Shown piece after piece: positions 17,431 to 40,436 of a DNA stretch of 41,001 nt. The stretch is taken from positions 1-41,001 of the forward strand of contig CAIOTH010000010.1 in the NCBI GenBank assembly GCA_903861145.1, written 5' to 3'. This DNA comes from an uncultured Bacteroidota bacterium (GTDB lineage Bacteria; Bacteroidota; Bacteroidia; Chitinophagales; LD1). Positions within the stretch are counted from its first letter, which is position 1; each line of letters opens with the position of its first letter. The notes beneath the pieces were generated by a model. The model saw nothing but the letters and a program-made list of their open reading frames with translations. It was not told where the DNA came from and did no database searches. The translations under genes were made by a program, and so were the position numbers.

Positions 17431-18309
17431 TTGGCTGGCAAATTCTTCGCAGTATTTTTTCTTATTGTTTCGACGGCGTCCTTAAAGGCTTTTCCCGTTG
17501 ATACAACCACAATTAAAACCAATTCGGGTAATGATACTCTTAATACTGCCTTGTTGGATTCGAACCCGTTGAATAAACATGCCGGCATTGATAGTGTGCA
17601 GTCACTTCTTATTACCGGCAATAAAGTAATGGTGAATGATATTGAGCAATCAAACTCATCCGGGCGCAACGCCTTTGTGTTCCTTATACTGGTAGCTTTA
17701 CTTGGCGCGCTTACTTACCTTAAAACCGCTTTCGGAAAAGACCTGGATGATTTAATCCAATCGGTAAGTAATCAAAACTTAGCGCAACAGATTTTCAGAA
17801 CGCAGTCGAGGGAAATTTCTTTCTCAACTATAGTGCTGAATTTGAATTTTATTGTTGTGATGAGTTTGTATGTGCGATTCATTTTGGTGAAATACTTTCA
17901 CGTTTCTGCGTCCGAAAGTTTCTCTTCAATACTTTTCATGAATTTTTTATTCACATTTTTTTACCTTGGAAAGATAGCTTTATTGAAAGTGATTGGCGTA
18001 TTATTTGAAGTGAGTGATGTATGCGATGAATACATTTTTAGTTTCACTACGGTATGCAAAACATTAGGATTGGCGCTGCTCCCCGCGTTATTTATATTTT
18101 ACACAGCGCCTCAAAAATTTTTCAATTTCGTTTTTATCATCTCAATTTTAGTTTTTGTTTTTATGGTTCTGATCTTTGTATGGCGAGGGTTATCCACAGC
18201 ATACAAATTATTGTACAGAAGCGTATATCATTTTTTTATTTACGTTTGTGTTGTAGAAATATCAACGATATTTTTACTGTTTAAATTGTTAACCAAAACA
18301 ATTAATTAA
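17431..18309 (+). CDS. DUF4271 integral membrane protein
   Basis: A 292-residue DUF4271 protein, a Bacteroidota-specific membrane family usually found next to hemD, as here. It has an apparent signal peptide or first helix (1-22), an extracytoplasmic low-complexity stretch (~25-75), and about six membrane helices between ~77 and 290. These include AFVFLILVALLGALTYL, LNFIVVMSLYVRFILV and a C-terminal VVEISTIFLLFKLL. The start is TTG at 17431, directly after the stop of the Omp85 gene. The codon before it is that stop, so no upstream start exists, and a later start would lose the export signal. Function unknown. Confidence 0.85.
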   Translation: MAGKFFAVFFLIVSTASLKAFPVDTTTIKTNSGNDTLNTALLDSNPLNKHAGIDSVQSLLITGNKVMVNDIEQSNSSGRNAFVFLILVALLGALTYLKTAFGKDLDDLIQSVSNQNLAQQIFRTQSREISFSTIVLNLNFIVVMSLYVRFILVKYFHVSASESFSSILFMNFLFTFFYLGKIALLKVIGVLFEVSDVCDEYIFSFTTVCKTLGLALLPALFIFYTAPQKFFNFVFIISILVFVFMVLIFVWRGLSTAYKLLYRSVYHFFIYVCVVEISTIFLLFKLLTKTIN

Positions 18310-18311
18310 CC

Positions 18312-18401
18312 ATGGCAACAAAAAAGAAAGCTGCTCCGAAAAAAGCAGCTAAGAAAGCCGCTCCTAAAAAAGCAGCTAAGAAAGCAGCAAAAAAAAAGTA
18401 A
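18312..18401 (+). CDS. 29-residue Lys/Ala-rich leader, probably the N-terminal tail of HemD
   Basis: ATG at 18312, only 2 bases after the DUF4271 stop, opens a 29-codon frame made almost wholly of Lys, Ala and Pro (MATKKKAAPKKAAKKAA...). It ends at TAA 18399-18401. The composition is that of histone-H1-like C-terminal tails. The frame ends directly after an A9 run. In the -1 frame the same composition continues (VIKKAASKKPAAKKPIAK...) without a stop into the uroporphyrinogen-III synthase frame. It is therefore best seen as the first part of one protein split by a frameshift, either programmed or caused by a homopolymer error in the sequence. Confidence 0.6.
   Translation: MATKKKAAPKKAAKKAAPKKAAKKAAKKK
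18389..18401 (+). other. candidate -1 ribosomal frameshift site (A AAA AAG, then stop)
   Basis: Nine A residues (18389-18397) are followed by G and TAA. In the zero frame the heptamer A AAA AAG (18392-18398) is exactly the class of slippery site used in dnaX and several insertion sequences, and a stop codon follows at once. A -1 shift here continues the Lys/Ala-rich reading into hemD. A single missing A in the assembly would produce the same picture. Confidence 0.5.
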
Positions 18402-18514
18402 TTAAAAAAGCTGCATCAAAGAAACCTGCTGCCAAAAAACCGATTGCGAAAACCAAACGATTAAAAGGCAGCAAAACATCCAACAGTAGCAGTACTCTTA
18501 AAAAGAAGGCTGAT

Positions 18515-19387
18515 GTGATATCACCTGAAAAGAGTACTGCTTCTTTTTTGCCCAAGGCCCAATCCGGAAAGCCGCAAATCATCATACCTCAGCGCATCGA
18601 GCGGAATTACGCCGAGCTTATTTCTAAAGCGCCGAAAACAAAAGTCAAAAACATTTTAGTTGCCCAACCCCAACCTGAGGGGCCTAAATCTTTTTATTAC
18701 GACCTTGAACAAAAATTCAAAGTAAAATTCACCTTCGTACCGTTTGTGAAAGTGGACGGTGTACCCGGAAAGGATTTCAGGAAACAGAGAATTGTTTTGA
18801 ACGATTTTAGTGGAATCGTTTTTACAAGTCGCAATTCTATCGATCACTTTTTTCGCATTTGCGATGAGCTGCGGGTTAAGATGAGCCAGGAAACCAAATA
18901 TTTCTGCACTTCAGAAGCTATTGCTTTGTACTTGCAGAAATACACCCAATACAGAAAACGGAAAGTTTTTTTTGGTGATATGAACAATAACAAGGAGTTG
19001 CGCATGTTGCTGATGAAGCACAAAGACGCTACGCGCTTTTTGTATATCTGTGCAGAGACTAAAAAAGATGAGATACCTGCTTTTATGGCGGCCAATGGCT
19101 TTAATTACGTTGAGGGCGTGATGTATAGAACTTCACCTGTTGACTTAACCGCCATTGATCCGCATAAATTTGACATGTTAATTCTTTTTAGCCCTACTGG
19201 CATCAACGCTTTGTTTCACAACTTCGCTAAATTTAGCCAGGATAAATTGAAAATTGCGGTTTATGGCAAGATTACAGCCGATTCAGTACTTGATAAAGGT
19301 TTAACCCTCCATTTAATGGCGCCGCTCGGCAATGCACCAACCATTTTAGTGGCCCTGGATAATTACTTAAAGGAAGCGAATAAATAG
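18515..19387 (+). CDS. hemD: uroporphyrinogen-III synthase (frame continues upstream to 18389)
   Basis: Closes and inverts ring D of hydroxymethylbilane to give uroporphyrinogen III, the branch point of heme and cobalamin synthesis. The HEM4 domain spans about residues 45-285, with the Bacteroidota-type opening VKNILVAQPQPEGPKSFYYDL. Further marks are GVPGKDFRKQRI, GIVFTSRNSIDHFF, KYFCTSEAIALYLQKY, MLILFSPTGINALF and IAVYGKITADSVLDKGL. The only standard start in this frame is GTG at 18515. However, the frame is open and protein-like back to 18389, with a strongly basic sequence, so the natural product probably starts at 18312 and crosses the A9 site. hemD following DUF4271 is a known Bacteroidota order. 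Enzyme identity is good; the N-terminus is uncertain. Confidence 0.88.
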   Translation: MISPEKSTASFLPKAQSGKPQIIIPQRIERNYAELISKAPKTKVKNILVAQPQPEGPKSFYYDLEQKFKVKFTFVPFVKVDGVPGKDFRKQRIVLNDFSGIVFTSRNSIDHFFRICDELRVKMSQETKYFCTSEAIALYLQKYTQYRKRKVFFGDMNNNKELRMLLMKHKDATRFLYICAETKKDEIPAFMAANGFNYVEGVMYRTSPVDLTAIDPHKFDMLILFSPTGINALFHNFAKFSQDKLKIAVYGKITADSVLDKGLTLHLMAPLGNAPTILVALDNYLKEANK

Positions 19388-19464: not shown

Positions 19465-20436
19465 ATGCGCAAAGGTTTACTAGTAATTGTTTTGTACTTC
19501 GTTTTTAAAAATGCCTGCGCTCAATCCGAGCCTCAGTTTACACAGTACATGTTTAATAGGTACCTTTTTAATTCGGCTTATGCGGGGAGTACCGGCGGTA
19601 TTGATATATCTGCATTATATCGCAATCAGTACGTTGGCCTTACAGCAAGGCCTATTGCTACTGAAGGGTTTAATGTAAATATGATGGTACCTGCTGCGAG
19701 TTCAGGTATAGGCATAACTGCAATCAATGATAATATAGGTTATCAGCGCTCTACATACCTGGCACTTAATTACGACTACCGTAAAAATTTTAGCTGGGGT
19801 AAAATGGGTATCGGCATTGGTGCGGGTATTATTCAGTCTTCTTTGAATGGTGCCGAATTGCAAGCGCCCGAGGGTAGCTATTCGCAGGGTGTGGTGAATC
19901 ATAATGACCCCAATCTGCCGAATACATTGCAAAACGGAATCGCCCCTGATTTGTCTATAGGCTTATATTTCAACAACGATAAATATTTTGCTGGCGCCTC
20001 TATCAATCATATTGCATTTGCTTCAGCGAAAATTAATGCCCCGGCTGGCAGTGTTGATCTTAATTTTGCCCGCAATCTTTTCATCATGGGTGGATATGAT
20101 ATTACGCTTACTAAAAAGCTGAAGTTTATGCCAAGCGCAATCATTAAAAGCGATTTTAAACAGGTTCAGGTTGATTTGAGTGGTACTTTCACTATTATTG
20201 ACAATATTTTAGCAGGAATTTCGTTTAGAGGATACAACAAAAATACAATTGATGCGTTGTCGTTGATTTTTGGTTTTAGATATCAGGGATTTCAATTCGT
20301 ATACTCATATGATGCCAATCTCTCTTATCTCACTAACTTCAACTCCGGCTCGCACGAATTGAGCGTTAATTACATTATAGGGTTAAAGAAAAAGGAAAAC
20401 AAGGGGTACTTTTATCACAACCCCAGGTTTGATTAG
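19465..20436 (+). CDS. porP: PorP/SprF family type IX secretion outer-membrane protein
   Basis: A 323-residue PorP/SprF-type outer-membrane beta-barrel. The signal peptide is residues ~1-19 (cleavage after ACA, before QSEPQFTQYM). The diagnostic mature start QPQFTQYMFN-RYLFNSAYAG appears here as PQFTQYMFNRYLFNSAYAGS, followed by ALYRNQYVGL and many amphipathic strands. PorP of Porphyromonas and SprF of Flavobacterium belong here; SprF-like proteins help export or anchor specific T9SS substrates. The gene lies directly upstream of gldK, the canonical porPKLMN order, so it is probably the core PorP. A 159-base gap with a promoter candidate separates it from gldK. Confidence 0.93.
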   Translation: MRKGLLVIVLYFVFKNACAQSEPQFTQYMFNRYLFNSAYAGSTGGIDISALYRNQYVGLTARPIATEGFNVNMMVPAASSGIGITAINDNIGYQRSTYLALNYDYRKNFSWGKMGIGIGAGIIQSSLNGAELQAPEGSYSQGVVNHNDPNLPNTLQNGIAPDLSIGLYFNNDKYFAGASINHIAFASAKINAPAGSVDLNFARNLFIMGGYDITLTKKLKFMPSAIIKSDFKQVQVDLSGTFTIIDNILAGISFRGYNKNTIDALSLIFGFRYQGFQFVYSYDANLSYLTNFNSGSHELSVNYIIGLKKKENKGYFYHNPRFD

Positions 20437-20525
20437 TTGATGATTCGGTTTTGTTGTATATTGCAACTTCAGAGTGTGTAAAATCGTATTTAACAATTGC
20501 ATTTTGATTTTTTTTTTGATTACTA

Positions 20526-20553
20526 TTGTAAAAACAAAAACTGATTATATTTA
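20526..20553 (+). promoter_or_regulatory. candidate promoter of gldKLMN (TTG-N17-TATATTTA)
   Basis: TTG at 20526-20528 and TATATTTA at 20546-20553, spaced by 17 bases, fit the Bacteroidota -33/-7 pattern. They lie about 43 bases upstream of the gldK ATG, after a T-rich tract. The position suits transcription of gldK onwards independent of porP. Pattern match only. Confidence 0.4.
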
Positions 20554-20595
20554 CGCTTCTTTAAAAAACAGGGGAAAACTATCAAAACCAAAAAC

Positions 20596-21861
20596 ATGAA
20601 AAACTTACATGGTCTTCTATGCAAGGCGTCTCTCGCGCTTTTGCTTTTTGCTGCCGGATGTAAAGGGGGATACAACGGCCAGCTACTTGGAGAACAGGAC
20701 CGACCGAAATGGAATCCAATAACGCCTTACGGAATGGTGTTCATTCCATCTGGTGTTTTGCACATTGGCCCAAGCGATCAGGATGTGAACAGTTCACATC
20801 AGGCTCGTGCTAAGCAAGTGTCAATTGTTGGGTTCTATATGGACGATACTGAAATTACCAATAACGAGTATCGCCAATTTATTGATTGGGTTCGCGATTC
20901 AGTTGCCCATAAGATGGGTGGCGATGTGAATACAGATGCCGATGGACATGAGTCCATAAACTGGGATAAAAAAATCGCTTGGTCAGGAAAAGGCGCTAAC
21001 GCTCAGCTTGAAGACATGTATCTTCCGGAAAATGAAAGAATTTGGGGAAGAAAGGAATTCGATCTCCGCAAGTTAAAATACGACTATCAGTGGTTTGATT
21101 ACAAAGCTGCTGCGCAAACGAAGAACAGAGGACAGGCTAGAACCAGCTTTATTCATAAAGAATCGGTTGACGTTTATCCTGATACTTTATGCTGGGTAAG
21201 AGATTTTACCTATTCTTACAACGAGCCAATGACTAGAAATTATTTCTGGCATCCTGCTTTTGATGATTATCCCGTGGTAGGTATTAATTGGCACCAGGCA
21301 AACGCATTCTGTTTTTGGAGAAGCAGGCTTTGGGAAGATTATAAAACTCCTCGTGGAGAGCCTTTGATGGATATCTTCCGCTTACCTACGGAGCATGAGT
21401 GGGAATATGCTGCACGTGGTGGCAAAAAGATGGCACCTTACCCTTGGGGCGGCCCTTACGTTAGAAACTCTAAAGGCTGTATTCTTGCCAACTTTAAACC
21501 TGGTAGAGGAAATTATCCTGAAGATGGCGGTTTCTACACCGTTCGTGCTGATGCATATTGGCCAAATGATTACGGTTTATATTGCATGGCAGGTAACGTT
21601 TCTGAATGGACATCATCTGCATTCTACGAAAACTCATACGCTTTCATTCATGACCTAAACCCTGATATCCGCTACGACGCTAAAGACTCTGAGCCTGAAG
21701 CTATGAAGCGTAAGGTTATCCGTGGTGGTTCATGGAAAGATATTGGATACTTTATTGAAACCGGTACCCGCCAATGGGAATATGCCGATACTTCAAAATC
21801 CTTTATCGGGTTTAGATGCGTAACTACTTTCTTAGGCAGAGATATTGCCGACAAGAAATAA
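20596..21861 (+). CDS. gldK: type IX secretion / gliding lipoprotein GldK (PorK)
   Basis: An outer-membrane-anchored periplasmic lipoprotein that forms the large T9SS ring with GldN. The signal peptide ends in a lipobox LLFAAGC with Cys at residue 22. The body is a formylglycine-generating-enzyme (SUMF1)-like domain: GMVFIPSGVLHIG near residue 50, FYMDDTEITNNEYRQFIDW, VVGINWHQANAFCFWRS, RLPTEHEWEYAARGG, NDYGLYCMAGNVSEWT and RKVIRGGSWKD. In GldK the SUMF1 fold is structural rather than catalytic (family knowledge). The length of 421 is normal. It opens the gldKLMN run. Confidence 0.96.
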   Translation: MKNLHGLLCKASLALLLFAAGCKGGYNGQLLGEQDRPKWNPITPYGMVFIPSGVLHIGPSDQDVNSSHQARAKQVSIVGFYMDDTEITNNEYRQFIDWVRDSVAHKMGGDVNTDADGHESINWDKKIAWSGKGANAQLEDMYLPENERIWGRKEFDLRKLKYDYQWFDYKAAAQTKNRGQARTSFIHKESVDVYPDTLCWVRDFTYSYNEPMTRNYFWHPAFDDYPVVGINWHQANAFCFWRSRLWEDYKTPRGEPLMDIFRLPTEHEWEYAARGGKKMAPYPWGGPYVRNSKGCILANFKPGRGNYPEDGGFYTVRADAYWPNDYGLYCMAGNVSEWTSSAFYENSYAFIHDLNPDIRYDAKDSEPEAMKRKVIRGGSWKDIGYFIETGTRQWEYADTSKSFIGFRCVTTFLGRDIADKK

Positions 21862-21868
21862 CACAACA

Positions 21869-21884
21869 ACACAATTAATTGTGT
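21869..21884. other. 16-bp perfect palindrome between gldK and gldL
   Basis: The sequence ACACAATT directly followed by its complement AATTGTGT lies 7 bases after the gldK stop, within the 112-base gkdK-gldL gap. It could be a weak hairpin or a dimeric regulator site. It lacks a following T-run, so it is not a typical terminator. Confidence 0.4.
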
Positions 21885-21973
21885 CTCTAATTTTTATCCC
21901 TATATTAATTCGTACGATTTTTTAAATCTGAAGCTAAACAATTCAATTATTTAACCCTTAAATTTTAAACACA

Positions 21974-22786
21974 ATGGCCCAAGGAAACAAGAGTTTTGTA
22001 GAAAAATTATTTCAAACTAAAGGTGGAAAGACAGGGATGAATTACGCGTACAGCTGGGGTGCTGCGGTGGTAATTTTAGGTGCACTTTTCAAAATCAATC
22101 ACTTTCCATATGCAAAAGAAATGCTTATCGTGGGAATGGGAACGGAAGTATTGATATTTTTCCTTTCAGGTTTCGAGCCTCAATACGAATACCATCCTGA
22201 ATATGAGTGGGAAAGAGTATATCCAGAACTAGCTGAAGATGCAGCTCCTATAGTAAAAGGTGGCAAACCTTTAACTCAACAATTAGATAAGATGTTAAGC
22301 GATGCAAAAGTTGGTCCCGATTTGATCAATAGTTTAGGTAGAGGCTTTACTTCTTTGGGTGAAAGCGTATCTAAATTGAATGACCTTACTGATGCTACTG
22401 TTGCTACTAACGAATTTTCGAAAAATGCAAAAAATGCTTCTGGTCAAATCAATAGCTTCGCACAAGCTGCTGCAACTGCAACAACCGCTGTAAACGCAAT
22501 TGGTTCGGGTGCTGAGCATACTAAAGTTTATCACGAGCAGGTTCAGGGCATGGTTAAGAATCTTTCTCAGCTTAACGCAATATACGAGCTTGAGTTACAA
22601 GACTCAAACAACCACTTAAAGGCGATGAACAAGTTCTTTGGTAACCTTAATTCGGCTGCTTCGGCTCTTTCCGAAACTGCTACTGATGCTGTTAAATACA
22701 AAGACAATTTGGTTCAATTAAACAAGAACCTTACTTCTTTGAACTCAGTGTATGGTAACATGTTATCTGCAATGAAGTCGGTGTAA
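21974..22786 (+). CDS. gldL: type IX secretion motor protein GldL (PorL)
   Basis: The inner-membrane stator-like partner of GldM in the proton-driven T9SS/gliding motor. The 270 residues begin with a cytoplasmic stretch, then two membrane helices (about 27-41 and 50-66: YSWGAAVVILGALFKI, ...MLIVGMGTEVLIFFLSGF). A Glu lies within the second helix at residue 58, matching the intramembrane acidic residue needed for proton use in this family, and there is a Lys at the end of the first. The remainder is a cytoplasmic domain with coiled-coil-like helices rich in Ala/Asn/Ser. It is the only gldL in the window, although two gldM genes are present. Confidence 0.96.
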   Translation: MAQGNKSFVEKLFQTKGGKTGMNYAYSWGAAVVILGALFKINHFPYAKEMLIVGMGTEVLIFFLSGFEPQYEYHPEYEWERVYPELAEDAAPIVKGGKPLTQQLDKMLSDAKVGPDLINSLGRGFTSLGESVSKLNDLTDATVATNEFSKNAKNASGQINSFAQAAATATTAVNAIGSGAEHTKVYHEQVQGMVKNLSQLNAIYELELQDSNNHLKAMNKFFGNLNSAASALSETATDAVKYKDNLVQLNKNLTSLNSVYGNMLSAMKSV

Positions 22787-22834
22787 TTGCTGTCTGAAAT
22801 AAATGGTTTAACCCAAAAATAGAAACTAAAGAAA

Positions 22835-24475
22835 ATGGCAGGTGGCAAATTAACCCCGCGGCAGAAGATGATTAACATGATGTACCTCGTGTTAACGGCG
22901 CTTCTTGCCCTAAACGTAACTAACGAAGTATTGAACGCCTTTCACTTAGTAAATGAAGGCCTTCAATCGTCAAATACCTCGTTAACATCTAAAAATGGTG
23001 ATATATACAGTGCATTTGAAAAACAGATGCGTGATAACCCGGCAAAAGCTAAGGATTACAACGAAAGAGCCCAGAAAGCAAGGGCATTAGCTAAAACATT
23101 GGATGATTCGCTCGCCGCCTATAAGGTAGCTGTTATTAAAGAAGCGGAAGGTGTTATTCCTCCGGGGGAAGCGGAAGAAGGCGATATTAAGCGTCGTGAC
23201 GATATTGATATCGCTACGCGTATGTTTGTTGAGGAAGGCGCCGGTGTTAAAAGAGGAAAAGGCCTTCAGAAAATGATTAATGATACTCGCAAGCAACTTC
23301 TTGATCTGGTTGATCCGGCGGATAAAGCTACTTTCAAGATCTCTCTTGACGCTCCGGACCCTAAGGCTGAGGGTGGCGAAAAGCTTGCTTGGGAATTTAA
23401 AACCTTTAATCACACTCCTGCAACAGCTGCATTGACTATTCTATCTAAATTTCAGAATGATGCTATCAGCTCTGAAGGTTCAGTTATTGAGTATTTGATT
23501 AAGAAGATCGGAGCTACTGACTTTAAATTTACTGACCTTTCGGCAAAAATTATTGCGCCTACAAGTTATGTATTGAGTGGCCAGCAGTATAAAGCCGATA
23601 TATTTTTGGCGGCCTTCAACAAAGGTACCGATCCTGAAATTTTTGAAGGTCCAATAGGCAGCTTTGTCAAAAATAAGGATGGCAGCTACGAACCAAAAGT
23701 ATTGGATACCGAACTTCCTCCGGGCTTTAGTCCAAATAAAATGAAAGCTGAAGGCGGGTTTGGTAAAAAAGAGGCTATTGGTGCAGGCGTAGGTGAGAAA
23801 ACCTATACCGGTGTGATTCGTGTTAAAGACCCGGTTACCAGTAAATACAAATTCTATCCTTTTGAAGGTAAGTACCAAACTGCTCCTAAGGCTGTGGTGG
23901 TTTCTCCAACAAAAATGAACGTGTTTTATATCGGTGTTGATAATCCGGTTGAAGTTTCGGTTCCGGGTGTTGGTCAGAATGATGTTAACGCTACCTTAAA
24001 TGGCGCTGGTACTCTTAAAAAAGATCCGGCTAATCCAGCCAGTTATATCGCAAATGTAACAGCCAGTGGAAAGTGCACTATTGATGTTAACGCCAAAATG
24101 GATGGCAAGGTGCAGGCAATGGGTAATAAGGAATTCCGTATCAAACGTATTCCGGATCCAACACCTTCTACCAATGGTGGTTTAAAAGGTGGTAGTGCAC
24201 AACCTGGTATCATGAAAGGGCAATCAGGTATTGCAGCTAAGCTTGATAACTTTGACTTTGATGCTAAATTTAAGGTGATAAGCTTTAGAATGTATTATTC
24301 GTCTAAGGGTGAAATTTATTACGACGACGCACAAGGGCCGGTATTTACAGCTAAAATGAAAGGATATATTGACAGATGCCGTGCTAAGGATATTATCATT
24401 ATTGACGACATTAAAGCAGTTGGACCCGATGGCCAGCCAAGAAAACTTGGCCAGGTAACATTTACTATTCAATAA
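22835..24475 (+). CDS. gldM: type IX secretion motor protein GldM (PorM), first copy
   Basis: The periplasm-spanning rotor-like shaft of the T9SS motor, 546 residues. It has a short cytoplasmic start with Arg9 in LTPRQKMINMM and one membrane helix (about 14-32, MYLVLTALLALNV) that packs in the GldL helix bundle. A long periplasmic part follows, with the helical D1 domain (RDDIDIATRMFVEEG) and beta-rich D2-D4 domains. The most typical parts are YTGVIRVKDP, FYPFEGKYQTAPKAVVVSPTKMNVFYIGVDNPVEVSVPG (in pieces) and IDDIKAVGPDGQPRKLG near the end. It lies 48 bases after gldL and 10 bases before gldN, clearly one transcript. Confidence 0.97.
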   Translation: MAGGKLTPRQKMINMMYLVLTALLALNVTNEVLNAFHLVNEGLQSSNTSLTSKNGDIYSAFEKQMRDNPAKAKDYNERAQKARALAKTLDDSLAAYKVAVIKEAEGVIPPGEAEEGDIKRRDDIDIATRMFVEEGAGVKRGKGLQKMINDTRKQLLDLVDPADKATFKISLDAPDPKAEGGEKLAWEFKTFNHTPATAALTILSKFQNDAISSEGSVIEYLIKKIGATDFKFTDLSAKIIAPTSYVLSGQQYKADIFLAAFNKGTDPEIFEGPIGSFVKNKDGSYEPKVLDTELPPGFSPNKMKAEGGFGKKEAIGAGVGEKTYTGVIRVKDPVTSKYKFYPFEGKYQTAPKAVVVSPTKMNVFYIGVDNPVEVSVPGVGQNDVNATLNGAGTLKKDPANPASYIANVTASGKCTIDVNAKMDGKVQAMGNKEFRIKRIPDPTPSTNGGLKGGSAQPGIMKGQSGIAAKLDNFDFDAKFKVISFRMYYSSKGEIYYDDAQGPVFTAKMKGYIDRCRAKDIIIIDDIKAVGPDGQPRKLGQVTFTIQ

Positions 24476-24485
24476 ATAAGCAGGT

Positions 24486-25316
24486 ATGTATAAGATAAGC
24501 AGGATTTTATTAGCTGTTACCCTAATGGGCGGTGCAATGCAGGTTTTTGCGCAGGAGCCCTTAGACGGCGCGTATGTGAAAACTACCACCAAGGAAAAAG
24601 AGGTGGTGCCATACGATTACGTTCGGGAAGCCGATGTATTTTGGGCAAAGCGCATTTGGAGAACTATTGACTTGAAGGAAAAAATGAACCTTCCGTTCAA
24701 ATATCCTCAACAGCCGTTAGCGCAGATTATACATAACGCGGCTAAAAACGGTGAGCTTACCGTATATGACCCGAGTGTTATTGATGCCGACCAATTTAAA
24801 AAGGTATTAACCATTGAGGACGTAAAGAAGATTGGTACAAGTGCCGATACGCTTTATCAACCCAATGCGTTAGACCCCGATAAGATTGATACGGTAATGG
24901 TTAAGAACGACTTTGCACCTGAAAAAATTTCGAAATACAGGATTAAGGAAGACTGGTTTTTTGACGAGAAGAACTCAGTTATGATAGCGCGTATTATTGG
25001 TGTTGCACCTGTAATGCCGGTTACCACTTCATCAGGTACTACAATGGAAGGTGATCTTACCATGTATTGGGTTTACTATCCTGACTTAAGACCTATTCTT
25101 GCAAAGTTTGAGGTATTCAATCCGAAGAACGATGCAGTTAGATTAAGCTGGGAAGATTTGTTTGAAGCGAGAATGTTTGAAAGCTATATCTATAAGGAGA
25201 GCAACGTTTACGACAGAAACATACAAGAGTATGCTACCGGCGTAGATGCCTTGCTTGAAAGCGATAGAGTTAAAAACGACGTTTTCATTTTTGAACACGA
25301 TCTTTGGAACTACTAG
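24486..25316 (+). CDS. gldN: type IX secretion ring protein GldN (PorN), first copy
   Basis: A periplasmic protein that forms the T9SS ring with GldK and contacts GldM. It has 276 residues with a signal peptide (1-22, cleavage after VFA, before QEP). Family marks are READVFWAKRIWRTIDLKEKMN, YDPSVIDADQFKK, KISKYRIKEDWFFDEKNS, MYWVYYPDLRPILAKFEVFNP and the conserved end MFESYIYKESNVYDRNI. The ATG lies 10 bases after the gldM stop. A strong terminator follows, so this closes the first T9SS transcript. Confidence 0.96.
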   Translation: MYKISRILLAVTLMGGAMQVFAQEPLDGAYVKTTTKEKEVVPYDYVREADVFWAKRIWRTIDLKEKMNLPFKYPQQPLAQIIHNAAKNGELTVYDPSVIDADQFKKVLTIEDVKKIGTSADTLYQPNALDPDKIDTVMVKNDFAPEKISKYRIKEDWFFDEKNSVMIARIIGVAPVMPVTTSSGTTMEGDLTMYWVYYPDLRPILAKFEVFNPKNDAVRLSWEDLFEARMFESYIYKESNVYDRNIQEYATGVDALLESDRVKNDVFIFEHDLWNY

Positions 25317-25338
25317 AAAACTACCGGTATAAGAAATC

Positions 25339-25372
25339 AAAAAGCGCCTCGATTTTTCGGGGCGCTTTTTTT
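25339..25372 (+). terminator. rho-independent terminator after gldN
   Basis: Arms AAAAAGCGCCTCG (25339-25351) and CGGGGCGCTTTTT (25358-25370) pair over 13 bp with one G-T pair. The hairpin is followed by T residues to 25372. It ends the porP-gldKLMN unit and means the second gldMN pair needs its own promoter. Confidence 0.88.
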
Positions 25373-25501
25373 ATTATCAATCCCGATTGACCTCTGGATG
25401 AAAACGGGATATCTAATTATAACGCATTTCATTCATTCAATATTTTTAGACCGCTACTTAATTTCAGATAAATTATGTAACCACTCGTTTCCCGCAATTT
25501 T

Positions 25502-25528
25502 TTGAAACCCGATTTCGTTTCGACTTTG
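25502..25528 (+). promoter_or_regulatory. weak promoter candidate before second gldM
   Basis: TTG at 25502-25504 within a T-run and CGACTTTG at 25521-25528 (ending TTTG like the -7 consensus but lacking the leading TA), with a 16-base spacer. It lies 32 bases upstream of the second gldM start. A promoter is expected here because of the preceding terminator, but the match is imperfect. Confidence 0.25.
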
Positions 25529-25560
25529 ATTGAATCTTTTCACCACTAAAATTTTCAACT

Positions 25561-27186
25561 ATGTCGAATTTAAAATTAACTCCTCGTCAAAAGATGATTA
25601 ACATGATGTACCTCGTGTTAACCGCAATACTGGCGCTCAATGTTTCTGCCGAAGTTCTCAACGCTTTCAAAACGGTAAACGATGGTATCAGCACCTCTAA
25701 CGTTTCGTTGCAATCTAAAAATGCTGATACCTATTCTATCTTAAGCAAGCAATATCAAAAGGACTCATTAAAGGCCAAAGAGGCCTTTATCAAAGCCGAT
25801 AAGGCAAAGGTGTTATCGGCTAAGCTTTATGCGCTTCTTGATCAGTATAAAGGCCAAATGATAAAGGATGCCGGCGGTATTGACAACCTAAGTGGAAAGA
25901 TTAAGCGCGATGACGATATCGATATTGCTACCCGCCTATTTGTAGAGAATAATGGCAAAGCCGGAAAAGACCTAAAGCTAAAGATTGACAGCACGCGCCT
26001 TGAGTTGCTGAACCTATTAGATGGAACCGATAGAGCAGAAGCCGAAAAATCCATGCCCCTTAAAACCGATGAAGCCGGCGATGGCAAGACCTGGGAATAC
26101 GCCAAGTTTAACTTAGTGCCTGTCGTTGCTGCAGTTACACTTTTATCGAAATATCAGAATGACCTGCTGAGTGCCGAGAGTCACATCATCGAAACCTTGT
26201 TTGGCGGCATTGACCGCGATAAACATAAAGTAGATAAGATGGCCGCGATGGTAATGTCACCCAGCAGTTTTGTTTTGCAAGGCGAACCATACAAGGCTGA
26301 CGTAATGGTTGCCGCTTACAGTTCAACGCAACATCCCGAGGTTTTCATTGGCCAATTCAATCAAAGCGTAAAGAAGGCTGAACACGGAAACTACCCTATG
26401 ATAAGTTCTACCAGCGATGCCTTGCCTTTGCTAAATCCCCAAAAGGTAGAAGTAGAAGGCGGCAGCGGCAAAATCCTGATGCCAGGTAATGCTGTAGGTA
26501 ATAAAAAATACACCGGCGTGGTTCGGGTGAAGGCACCTAACGAGGGTTATGAGTTCTATCCATTCGAGGGCGAATACCAGGTAGCGCCGAAGGTTGCAGT
26601 AGTATCACCCAAAATGATGAACGTAATGTATATCGGCCTGGATAACTCATTGGATGTGTCAGTTCCGGGCGTGGCTGCCAGCGATGTCTCAGCCGAGTTC
26701 GATGGCCAGGGCAAATTAGTCAAGAGTGCGGACGGCAATTACATTGCATTGCCCTCTAAACCCGGCCACGTTAAGATTATAGTAAAGGCCAAAGTGAATG
26801 GTCGCGATATGGTAATGGGCACTCAGGAGTTCAGGGCCAAAATCGTCCCCGACCCAATCAGCACAGTCGATGGCGCCTATGACGGCGGCAAGATTTCTAT
26901 TGCTAAAATGAAAGCCAGTCGCGCCATAATACCGAAGGTAGTCAACTTCGACTTCCAGGTACACTTTACAGTCGAGAGCTACAAAATGAGTTTCAGGTCG
27001 CATAAGGACAACAACATCAGCCTGCCCATCACCGTTACCGGACCTATTTACGATACCCAGGTAAAGGACATTATTGAACACCGGCTACAAGCCGGCGATG
27101 ATGTGTTCTTCGATGATATCATTGTGCGCGGCCCTGCCGGCGATAGGCGCAAGATTAACTCTCTGATATTCGCGGTAACACTCTAA
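25561..27186 (+). CDS. second GldM paralogue
   Basis: A second full-length GldM of 541 residues. It keeps the motor features: Arg9 in LTPRQKMINMM, one membrane helix MYLVLTAILALNV, and the D1 mark RDDDIDIATRLFVENN. It also keeps YTGVVRVKAP, YEFYPFEGEYQVAPKVAVVSP, MMNVMYIGLDNSLDVSVPG and the ending FDDIIVRGPAGDRRKIN. Outside these blocks it has diverged strongly from the copy at 22835. Synonymous codons are shifted to C-ending forms (for example Phe TTC, Asp GAC and Val GTC near the 3' end, where the first copy has TTT and GAT). No second gldL accompanies it, so it presumably works with the single GldL, or replaces GldM under some conditions; this is inference. Confidence 0.95.
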   Translation: MSNLKLTPRQKMINMMYLVLTAILALNVSAEVLNAFKTVNDGISTSNVSLQSKNADTYSILSKQYQKDSLKAKEAFIKADKAKVLSAKLYALLDQYKGQMIKDAGGIDNLSGKIKRDDDIDIATRLFVENNGKAGKDLKLKIDSTRLELLNLLDGTDRAEAEKSMPLKTDEAGDGKTWEYAKFNLVPVVAAVTLLSKYQNDLLSAESHIIETLFGGIDRDKHKVDKMAAMVMSPSSFVLQGEPYKADVMVAAYSSTQHPEVFIGQFNQSVKKAEHGNYPMISSTSDALPLLNPQKVEVEGGSGKILMPGNAVGNKKYTGVVRVKAPNEGYEFYPFEGEYQVAPKVAVVSPKMMNVMYIGLDNSLDVSVPGVAASDVSAEFDGQGKLVKSADGNYIALPSKPGHVKIIVKAKVNGRDMVMGTQEFRAKIVPDPISTVDGAYDGGKISIAKMKASRAIIPKVVNFDFQVHFTVESYKMSFRSHKDNNISLPITVTGPIYDTQVKDIIEHRLQAGDDVFFDDIIVRGPAGDRRKINSLIFAVTL

Positions 27187-27231
27187 GTCTGTATTGTCTC
27201 ATTATATTTTATCTATCTAATTAGCTAAACT

Positions 27232-28059
27232 ATGAAAGCCATAAAAGCTATAGCCCTGGTGATTGCATGGTTCCTAACCGGTTCAACTTTAATAGCCCAG
27301 GATATCGAACTATTACCCTGGCAGCAACGTGACCGCAAGGATATGAAGCCGCTGGAATACCAATACCAACGCGAAGCCGACGTATTTTGGAGCAAGAACA
27401 TCTGGCGGGTTATTGATGTCCGCCAAAAAATGAACAAGCCTTTTGCCTATCCCCAAAGGCCCCTGGTCCAAATCATTCATGAAGCCGCAATGCGGGGCGA
27501 CCTAAAAGTGTACGACCCCTCATTAGTAAATGCCGACCAATTCAAAAAGGCAATGTCGACTGCTGAGGTAGCGGCCATTGGTGTAAAGCGCGATACCAGC
27601 CTAATGGCCAATGCCGAAAACCCGGATATAGAAGAGACCGTCATTACCCACGAAGACCTGAAGTGGGAGCGTATCACCAAGTTCCGAGTACGCGAGGTAT
27701 GGTTCTTCGATACCCGCACTTCATCCATGCAGGTCCGTATTATCGGCCTGGCACCGGTGATGGAATATACCGATGCCAAGGGTGTTTACCTTGGCGACAT
27801 GGTCTTGTATTGGGTCTATTTTCCTGACCTGCGCGAGATGCTTGCCAAAGAGGAGGTCTTCAATCCTCAAAACGACTGGCAGCATTATAGTTGGGACGAC
27901 CTCTTCGCCATGCGCATGTTCGAAAGCACAATATATAAAGAAAGTAACGTATATGATAGAAACATTACCGAGTATGCTTCCGGCAAAGATGCCCTGTTAG
28001 AAAGCGACCGCATCAAACAACACATCTTCGAAACCGAACACGACATGTGGGAGTATTGA
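27232..28059 (+). CDS. second GldN paralogue
   Basis: A second full-length GldN of 275 residues with its own signal peptide (1-23, cleavage after LIA, before QDIE). Conserved blocks match the first copy: READVFWSKNIWRVIDVRQKMN, YDPSLVNADQFKK, ITKFRVREVWFFDTRTS, LYWVYFPDLREMLAKEEVFNP and MFESTIYKESNVYDRNI. Elsewhere it differs clearly, for example in the ~30 residues after the signal peptide. It lies 45 bases after the second gldM, so the pair forms a unit. Flavobacterium is known to carry a GldN paralogue (GldO), but here the whole M-N pair is duplicated. Confidence 0.95.
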   Translation: MKAIKAIALVIAWFLTGSTLIAQDIELLPWQQRDRKDMKPLEYQYQREADVFWSKNIWRVIDVRQKMNKPFAYPQRPLVQIIHEAAMRGDLKVYDPSLVNADQFKKAMSTAEVAAIGVKRDTSLMANAENPDIEETVITHEDLKWERITKFRVREVWFFDTRTSSMQVRIIGLAPVMEYTDAKGVYLGDMVLYWVYFPDLREMLAKEEVFNPQNDWQHYSWDDLFAMRMFESTIYKESNVYDRNITEYASGKDALLESDRIKQHIFETEHDMWEY

Positions 28060-40214: not shown

Positions 40215-40436
40215 ATGAAGGAAGAAAACCCCATAAAAAAAAAGCCCAATAACGATTACCTCCGCTACTCCGGCCTTGGTTTTCAACTAGCCGCAACTAT
40301 TGGCGTGGGTGTATTTATCGGTGTCGAACTCGATAAATGGCTTAAAACTTCAAAGCCATGGTTTACTATTGGCTGTAGTTTACTATTCCTGGTAGTTGGC
40401 TTTTATGCAGCGTTTAAAGATTTGCTGAAAAAGTAG
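40215..40436 (+). CDS. AtpZ/AtpI-family small membrane protein
   Basis: A 73-residue protein with a basic cytoplasmic start (KEENPIKKKPNNDYLRYSGLG) and two membrane helices (~26-43 and 50-68). Between them is the conserved GVELDKWLKTSKPWF, the pattern of the AtpZ/AtpI family linked with F1Fo ATP synthase assembly or cation supply. In Bacteroidota this gene commonly lies just before atpB. Here the next gene is on the other strand, so it is cut off from any atp operon in this window. It ends 3 bases before the convergent neighbour. Confidence 0.88.
   Translation: MKEENPIKKKPNNDYLRYSGLGFQLAATIGVGVFIGVELDKWLKTSKPWFTIGCSLLFLVVGFYAAFKDLLKK

Follow-up and report, generated by a model that had tools for sequence, protein, structure and literature searches.

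A conserved slip site and a covarying RNA hairpin suggest programmed −1 recoding of a tailed HEM4-like gene in Bacteroidota

Introduction

In E. coli dnaX, a −1 frameshift at the heptamer A AAA AAG yields two products from one start; a stop codon follows soon past the shift in the −1 frame, and a hairpin lies close behind the heptamer. To our knowledge, conserved and gene-specific recoding is uncommon in cellular bacterial genes. Where motif efficiencies were compared in E. coli with stimulators present, A_AAA_AAG was described as one of the most efficient motifs, and it was also noted that a downstream stimulatory element is not always found in prokaryotic frameshift cases (PMC4066793). Ribosomes have further been described to slide on iterated or consecutive AAA codons (PMC4363877). 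Among the passages that we compared, the nearest cellular precedent for the gene described below is chlD of the Mg/Co-chelatase, in which −1 recoding occurs at AT-rich slippery sites and which has homologs fused in one frame; those passages mention downstream stimulatory structures and give no distances for them (PMC3711429, PMC9227772).

Three other systems are also relevant. Nine A's can join two reading frames by transcriptional slippage, as in certain genes with 9A runs and in IS elements (PMC1088944, in the part consulted). In phage T7 gene 10, a terminator that lies far downstream of the shift site (>200 nt) is involved in frameshifting, by an effect that the consulted part of the source describes as still to be explained (PMC5009743). 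Lastly, Lys/Ala/Pro-rich domains of low complexity, such as the histone-H1-like KPAA domains of Pseudomonas AlgP and PhaF, are attached to other domains; they are reported to bind DNA, and AlgP localises to polyphosphate granules (PMC9239181, in part).

Here we analyze one gene in a window of 41,001 nucleotides, that is, the whole stretch of contig sequence presented above. Like dnaX, the gene carries the heptamer A AAA AAG; in contrast to dnaX, its early stop is in frame 0, its hairpin is remote from the run, and the shifted product would be an enzyme-like protein. It resembles chlD in being a cellular gene with one-frame fusion homologs, but it encodes a different protein, and its pre-shift product would be a histone-like peptide. 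It differs from the 9A slippage genes in that it is cellular, that a conserved, covarying hairpin follows the run, and that the frame relation is always −1, and from T7 gene 10 in that the latter is a phage gene with a more distant 3' element. The likeness to AlgP and PhaF is one of composition only: the basic domain sits at the opposite end of the protein, and no recoding is described for them in the part of PMC9239181 compared. Among the matches listed in our searches of the open-access literature on hemD/uroporphyrinogen and recoding, there was no report of recoding or of basic tails in this gene, and neither 'hemD' nor 'uroporphyrinogen' was found in PMC3711429 or in the part of PMC5009743 that was consulted.

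Results

A preliminary description of the window had reported a hemD-like gene split at a run of A's, and our reading of the letters confirmed this layout and its coordinates (Table 1). The run consists of exactly nine A's and closes a 29-codon Lys/Ala (K/A) ORF, whose ATG stands two bases past the stop codon of DUF4271 (18307–18309). The sequence encoding a HEM4 domain follows in the −1 frame relative to this ORF; its reading frame is already open immediately 5' of the run and stays so through 19387. The only start candidates of that frame 5' of the HEM4 match are GTG at 18515 and TTG at 18548. The earlier statement that the frame contains no ATG at all is correct 5' of the domain, but an ATG occurs at 18881 within it. 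Similarly, the heptamer A AAA AAG is indeed present in the window, but it is merely one form of the site, as other loci have A AAA AAA. Two more homopolymer runs were seen in the window: a T10 run at 20508–20517, between PorP and GldK, and a second A9 run at 40235–40243, near the window end.

Table 1. Features of the recoded locus and its surroundings (window positions).
Feature	Position	Strand	Evidence or remark
DUF4271 gene, conserved upstream neighbour	17431–18309	+	PF14093, E 4e-19
Putative Bacteroidota-type −7 promoter motif TACGTTTG (TAnnTTTG)	18241–18248	+	in 3' end of DUF4271 gene
Lys/Ala (histone-H1-like) ORF, 29 codons, frame 0, start MATK	18312–18401	+	24–102 aa in 27/27 family loci
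A9 slippery run, 0-frame GCA AAA AAA AAG TAA, heptamer A AAA AAG	18389–18397	+	A9/A10 in 27/27 loci
0-frame stop TAA of K/A ORF	18399–18401	+	read from sequence
−1 frame linker, tail to HEM4 domain	18398–18558	+	0 stops over 27 loci; pN/pS
Covarying RNA hairpin (outer arms 18488–18499 and 18530–18541, inner helix 18508–18525)	18488–18541	+	covariation; fold z −3.0
T-rich stretch, terminator-like, directly 3' of hairpin	18542–18549	+	T counts across f1 loci
HEM4-fold domain, HemD-like paralog, probably not heme-pathway HemD	18559–19387	+	PF02602, E 3.2e-26; family-wide, mostly without hemC
T9SS genes PorP/SprF, GldK, GldL, GldM, GldN, second GldM and GldN	19465–28059	+	NCBIfam TIGR03519, TIGR03525, TIGR03513, TIGR03517, TIGR03523

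We label the window's own family f1 and other families f4, f15 and so on, with g for genus, L for locus and G for genome. A search with the HEM4 part of the gene detected it in 59 of 60 relatives; it was present in all 30 genomes of f1 and in 387 of the 396 genomes of the order. Counts for f1 rest on 27 loci, the window's own included. Three of the 30 loci were excluded: L007 for an N in the slip site, L012 for a contig end that cuts it, and L034 as a member of another family. The named family relatives are MAGs with different isolate names. The preliminary description had proposed that the N-termini of relatives be compared, and this comparison showed that the whole arrangement is kept in 27 of 27 loci. 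In each, a K/A ORF that begins with the shared start sequence ATGGCAAC ends at a run of nine A's (23 loci) or ten (L009, L010, L011 and L024), the 0-frame stop lies 0–5 nt past the run, and HEM4 is at −1. The 0-frame ORF always ended in A AAA AAG, A AAA AAA or A AAA AAT, that is, in a site of the type X_XXY_YYZ, and every run had the at least nine A's associated with transcriptional slippage. Site and open −1 frame were thus conserved across diverged species, some of them as little as 63% identical to the window in HEM4. Outside the 27-locus count, L074 also has an A9 run where the HEM4 frame opens.

The position of the run exceeds what chance would give. The second-longest run of A's within the K/A ORFs was no longer than 7 in the 27 loci, and when codons were shuffled, a run of at least nine A's within 9 nt of the stop was obtained in 2.3 of 27 loci, compared with 27 of 27 observed. 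Between the run and the domain, the HEM4 frame contained no stop in 1730 codons over the 27 loci, whereas the other two frames contained 124 and 182. Values of pN/pS, computed on 21 of the 27 loci, were lowest for the HEM4 frame on both sides of the hairpin, but clearly so only after it: the linker value was 0.70 before the hairpin (other frames 0.89 and 0.81), indicating weak coding constraint, and 0.45 after it. Upstream, a promoter-like TAnnTTTG lies 70–72 nt 5' of the K/A ATG in 25 of 27 loci; the exceptions, L021 and L028, have just 51 and 62 nt of sequence upstream of the ATG. We take this consensus to be the −7 promoter motif of Bacteroidota.

Between the run and the HEM4 core, all 27 loci contained an uninterrupted stem of 10–16 bp (G-U allowed) that closes a loop of 30–45 nt. 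The stem begins 21–34 nt from the A-run in genera g2–g4 and 63–96 nt from it in g1. In alignment A1, 99.3% of cells in the 12 pairs of the outer helix were paired, and slid versions of the helix paired in 18–72%. Because a script had first located the stems on which these alignment windows were centred, there is some circularity in the paired fraction, but none in the covariation of the letters. Six of the 12 outer pairs were compensatory, with changes on both sides, and cells changed on both sides numbered 28 vs 6.8 in shuffles (0 of 500 shuffles as high). The inner helix was weaker, with 88.4% paired and one of six pairs compensatory. In the 21 of 27 loci used for this purpose, synonymous divergence was 0.073 in the hairpin vs 0.70 in the HEM4 core.

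A covariance model of the hairpin gave a strong match (E 8e-10 or better) in all 30 f1 genomes, each time on the contig and at the position of the gene studied here; G004 contained a second copy of the hairpin at a contig end. No match of comparable strength was found, under stricter filters, in the other 366 of the 396 genomes of the order; weak matches in G063, G138, G200 and G234 (E 0.0036–0.018) were attributed to chance, given 396 genomes, and there were further weak ones. Rfam gave no match to the hairpin at gathering score, and a match below it on the opposite strand (E 0.12) was taken as chance. A possible pseudoknot, in which the loop sequence GATGT would pair with an ACATC located 5' of the stem, was rejected, as it occurs in most g1 loci only and is lost in L018, L021 and elsewhere.

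A second lineage with the −1 arrangement was found in family f4. Four of its five loci, all in genus g7, have a K/A/P ORF, an A9 run with A AAA AAA at the end of the 0 frame, and HEM4 in the −1 frame, and all four have a stem 26 nt from the run. The covariance model, trained on f1 and not on f4, matched this stem in L104 (E 3.7e-5, 16 kb) and L105 (E 3.6e-4); the match in L103 was weak (E 0.11), the sole match in L102 was off the stem, and whole-genome searches with their stricter filters did not report the f4 stem. The fold z was −5.3 in L103; the values of +1.1 and −0.75 for L102 and L104 come from windows that lay on the wrong strand and cut the hairpin, respectively. As a control, the best stem of each locus within a fixed window (at most 260 nt) was compared with 20 shuffles. 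The stem exceeded all 20 in 19 of the 21 f1 loci in which the window extended to it and in four of four f4 loci, but in only one of 15 in-frame and none of 19 untailed loci. The exceptions were L008 and L032, whose stems failed to beat all shuffles, and the in-frame L080, which did so slightly (22.0 vs 21.0); 200-nt windows of L026–L031 fell short of the stem. The hairpin thus accompanies the −1 arrangement in both families.

The preliminary description had asked whether close relatives carry the tail, and the answer was divided. Basic tails are fused in frame in 15 loci of other families: f15, f19, part of f3 and f18, the single g47 locus of f4 (L106), L079 and L080. These tails consist of Lys/Ala/Ser/Pro/Thr, and apart from L106 some 42–207 codons separate the start from the HEM4 match. 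In Saprospiraceae relatives and several other families, however, HEM4 starts near the domain, mostly with ATG, and has no basic tail. The sixth f4 genome gave no match in the gene search. Because relatives fuse the same parts in frame, a shift in f1 and f4 would join what those relatives simply fuse. In f15 (L086–L090) the in-frame tails seem to start at GTG, as there is no ATG before the HEM4 match in the five loci. In L079 the tailed gene adjoins an ORF that resembles the RNase P protein, and not T9SS genes.

A tree was built from 65 HEM4 proteins of 68 rows, leaving out L007, L012 and L062 (the tail of L062 is the same as that of L098). Its well-supported branches require that the shifted state changed twice, whether it was gained on both occasions or gained once and lost once. 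Family f1 was placed beside the in-frame f15 and the mixed f3 with weak support (82/41), and the position of L106 next to f4 depends on a very long branch, which the program flagged.

Profile matches, to PF02602 and to the HemD structure PDB 3p9z (E 1e-4), assign the encoded protein to the HEM4 fold. The gene fell far below the cut-off of the NCBIfam equivalog, as did a second HEM4 gene of the same genome. On contig C46 (L128, 479–2487), a hemA fragment, hemC and this second gene follow one another without interruption. Without hemC, uroporphyrinogen-III synthase has no substrate. Although the window's own genome has hemC, only nine of the 30 f1 genomes do (6 of 22 good ones), and the other 21, which gave no hemC match, all keep the gene of this study. 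Across the order, hemC was found in 59 of 119 genomes. A second HEM4 gene was present in ten of the 30 f1 genomes, namely the nine with hemC and G008. The preliminary description had called the gene HemD, a heme enzyme. Because it is kept in genomes that lack a match to hemC, which makes the substrate of HemD, and because the heme-pathway copy of this genome is the one beside hemC, the gene is probably a non-heme, HEM4-fold paralog with DUF4271 as its constant neighbor. The scatter of hemC across f1 reflects patchy loss of heme synthesis. In G011 (C61, 18030–18627) the hemC match is split into two parts that differ in frame and are separated by four bases; either a broken frame or faulty assembly may account for this.

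DUF4271 lies upstream in 26 of 29 f1 loci, and the other three (L012, L021 and L028) have too little upstream sequence to show it (156, 479 and 565 nt). A PorP match was found downstream in 8 of 29, with several others short or possibly missed by the search, and the downstream ORF in L104 and L106 was taken for GldK by eye. We rejected the idea that the gene is generally the leader of a T9SS operon, since PorP follows in just those eight loci and L010, L013, L017, L026 and L030 show other genes. Within the window, GldM and GldN occur twice in tandem (22835–28059; TIGR03517 and TIGR03523, two proteins each).

Discussion

We consider it likely that this gene is expressed by programmed −1 recoding, probably ribosomal, which would give two products, the K/A peptide on its own and a HEM4-like protein that carries it as a tail. 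Such a pair of products had been suggested in the preliminary description, and the conservation of the site, the in-frame fusions elsewhere and the covarying RNA in the overlap support it strongly. A single message would carry the short Lys/Ala ORF followed by the HEM4-fold protein in the −1 frame. Most ribosomes would stop right past the A9/A10 run and release the basic peptide, and a fraction would shift to −1 on the run, either because tRNA-Lys re-pairs on the heptamer (A AAA AAG, A AAA AAA) or because they slide on poly-A. The shifted ribosomes would then produce a HEM4-like protein whose N-terminal tail is the basic peptide. The hairpin, which always lies between the shift site and the HEM4 core, would most likely stay folded behind stopping ribosomes and block transcription or internal initiation; we favor a role in which shifted ribosomes open it, such that only the tailed form is made. 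It is not a classical stimulator, because at 21–96 nt downstream of the run it is too far away and its distance is too variable.

Other explanations were weighed against the same data. The preliminary description had offered a sequencing or assembly error in the homopolymer as the simple alternative. The genome is a draft of 174 contigs, and we presume nine A's to be error-prone in some technologies; because different assemblies repeat the same arrangement in 27 loci, even where HEM4 is no more than 63% identical to the window, error is excluded and its chance is negligible. We also judge it very unlikely that there are two overlapping but separate genes, in which the K/A peptide stops and HEM4 starts independently in the linker. 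Possible starts do exist: f4 has an ATG directly 5' of the HEM4 core, from which an untailed start is possible in that family; five of the six g4 loci L026–L031 have a linker ATG; and the GTG at 18515, which the preliminary description had named, could be annotated as a start in the window. Yet no start candidate is conserved family-wide. GTG recurs at this position in L032 and other g1 loci, but the codon is GAG in L026–L031 and L033 and GCG in L018, eight loci in all, and L018 and L024 have no ATG, GTG or TTG anywhere 5' of the HEM4 match. Nor would chance be expected to hold the −1 frame open to the A-run in every one of the 27 loci when the other two frames together contain 306 stops, and separate genes sit poorly with the tails that other families fuse in frame. 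Transcriptional slippage is the main rival, and we consider it unlikely, though far less so than separate genes. RNA polymerase would add one A (or drop two) on A9/A10, leaving the ribosome itself unshifted. In keeping with this, it is the run that is conserved rather than the strict heptamer (A9 mostly, and A10 in four loci), and nine A's is a length at which selection against slippage was seen in a large proportion of the studied genomes, with IS elements making use of slippage (PMC1088944, in the part consulted). However, slippage would feed all three frames, yet the 27 f1 and four f4 loci are all at −1, and a hairpin transcribed after the run would have no obvious role in it. We favor a ribosomal shift because of this constant direction and the downstream hairpin, noting that the direction carries modest weight with just two independent lineages.

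A further possibility, compatible with ribosomal recoding, concerns the hairpin. It might be an intrinsic terminator of the K/A message that the shifted ribosome antiterminates, which would amount to attenuation of HEM4 and, in loci where they adjoin it, of T9SS genes; we regard this as a tentative idea, a little less doubtful than slippage. A strong stem followed by a T-rich stretch is seen in most f1 loci: in 24 of 27, the first 10 nt past the stem include 5–8 T's. Codons after the stem are skewed in the same direction: Ser is TCT in 23 of 25 cases and Phe is TTT in 22 of 23, compared with 77 of 369 and 318 of 518 in the HEM4 core, although the loci counted share ancestry, so that they are not independent, and TCT takes part in the pairing at the stem's base. 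Conversely, the loop is long for a terminator, the T tract is poor in L023–L025 (3–4 T's) and absent in f4, and a terminator scan, which permits loops of 3–8 only, did not report the hairpin. Less likely again is a message gated as a whole by frameshifting, in which, with the hairpin as barrier, the HEM4-like protein (and perhaps the adjoining T9SS genes here) would be expressed only after a shift. If this were true, the state of Lys-tRNA or the K/A peptide would set downstream expression, and the gene would exemplify leader-peptide control by choice of frame and not by stalling.

The tail itself could plausibly tether the HEM4 protein to nucleic acid or polyphosphate, judging from the basic domains to which it is similar in composition. 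Further K/A-rich ORFs exist in the same genome (L002, L003 and L004): one of 46 aa that stands alone, one with an acidic end, and one that forms the tail of a SWIB domain.

Taken together, the conservation of slip site and RNA hairpin across the family suggests a genuine genetic switch rather than an error in the sequence. The covarying hairpin, without a match in Rfam at gathering score, is an element new here and is tied to the recoded gene. Our results also suggest that many genomes of Bacteroidota have, next to DUF4271, a HEM4 gene other than the hemD of heme synthesis, in which case the label hemD would be misleading. Further recoded genes, annotated as broken or late-starting, may lie concealed wherever a short Lys/Ala ORF runs out in poly-A ahead of a −1 frame. 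In the two families with the shifted arrangement, recoding would provide an enzyme-like protein with a histone-like tail, a fusion of the same kind as their relatives make in frame.
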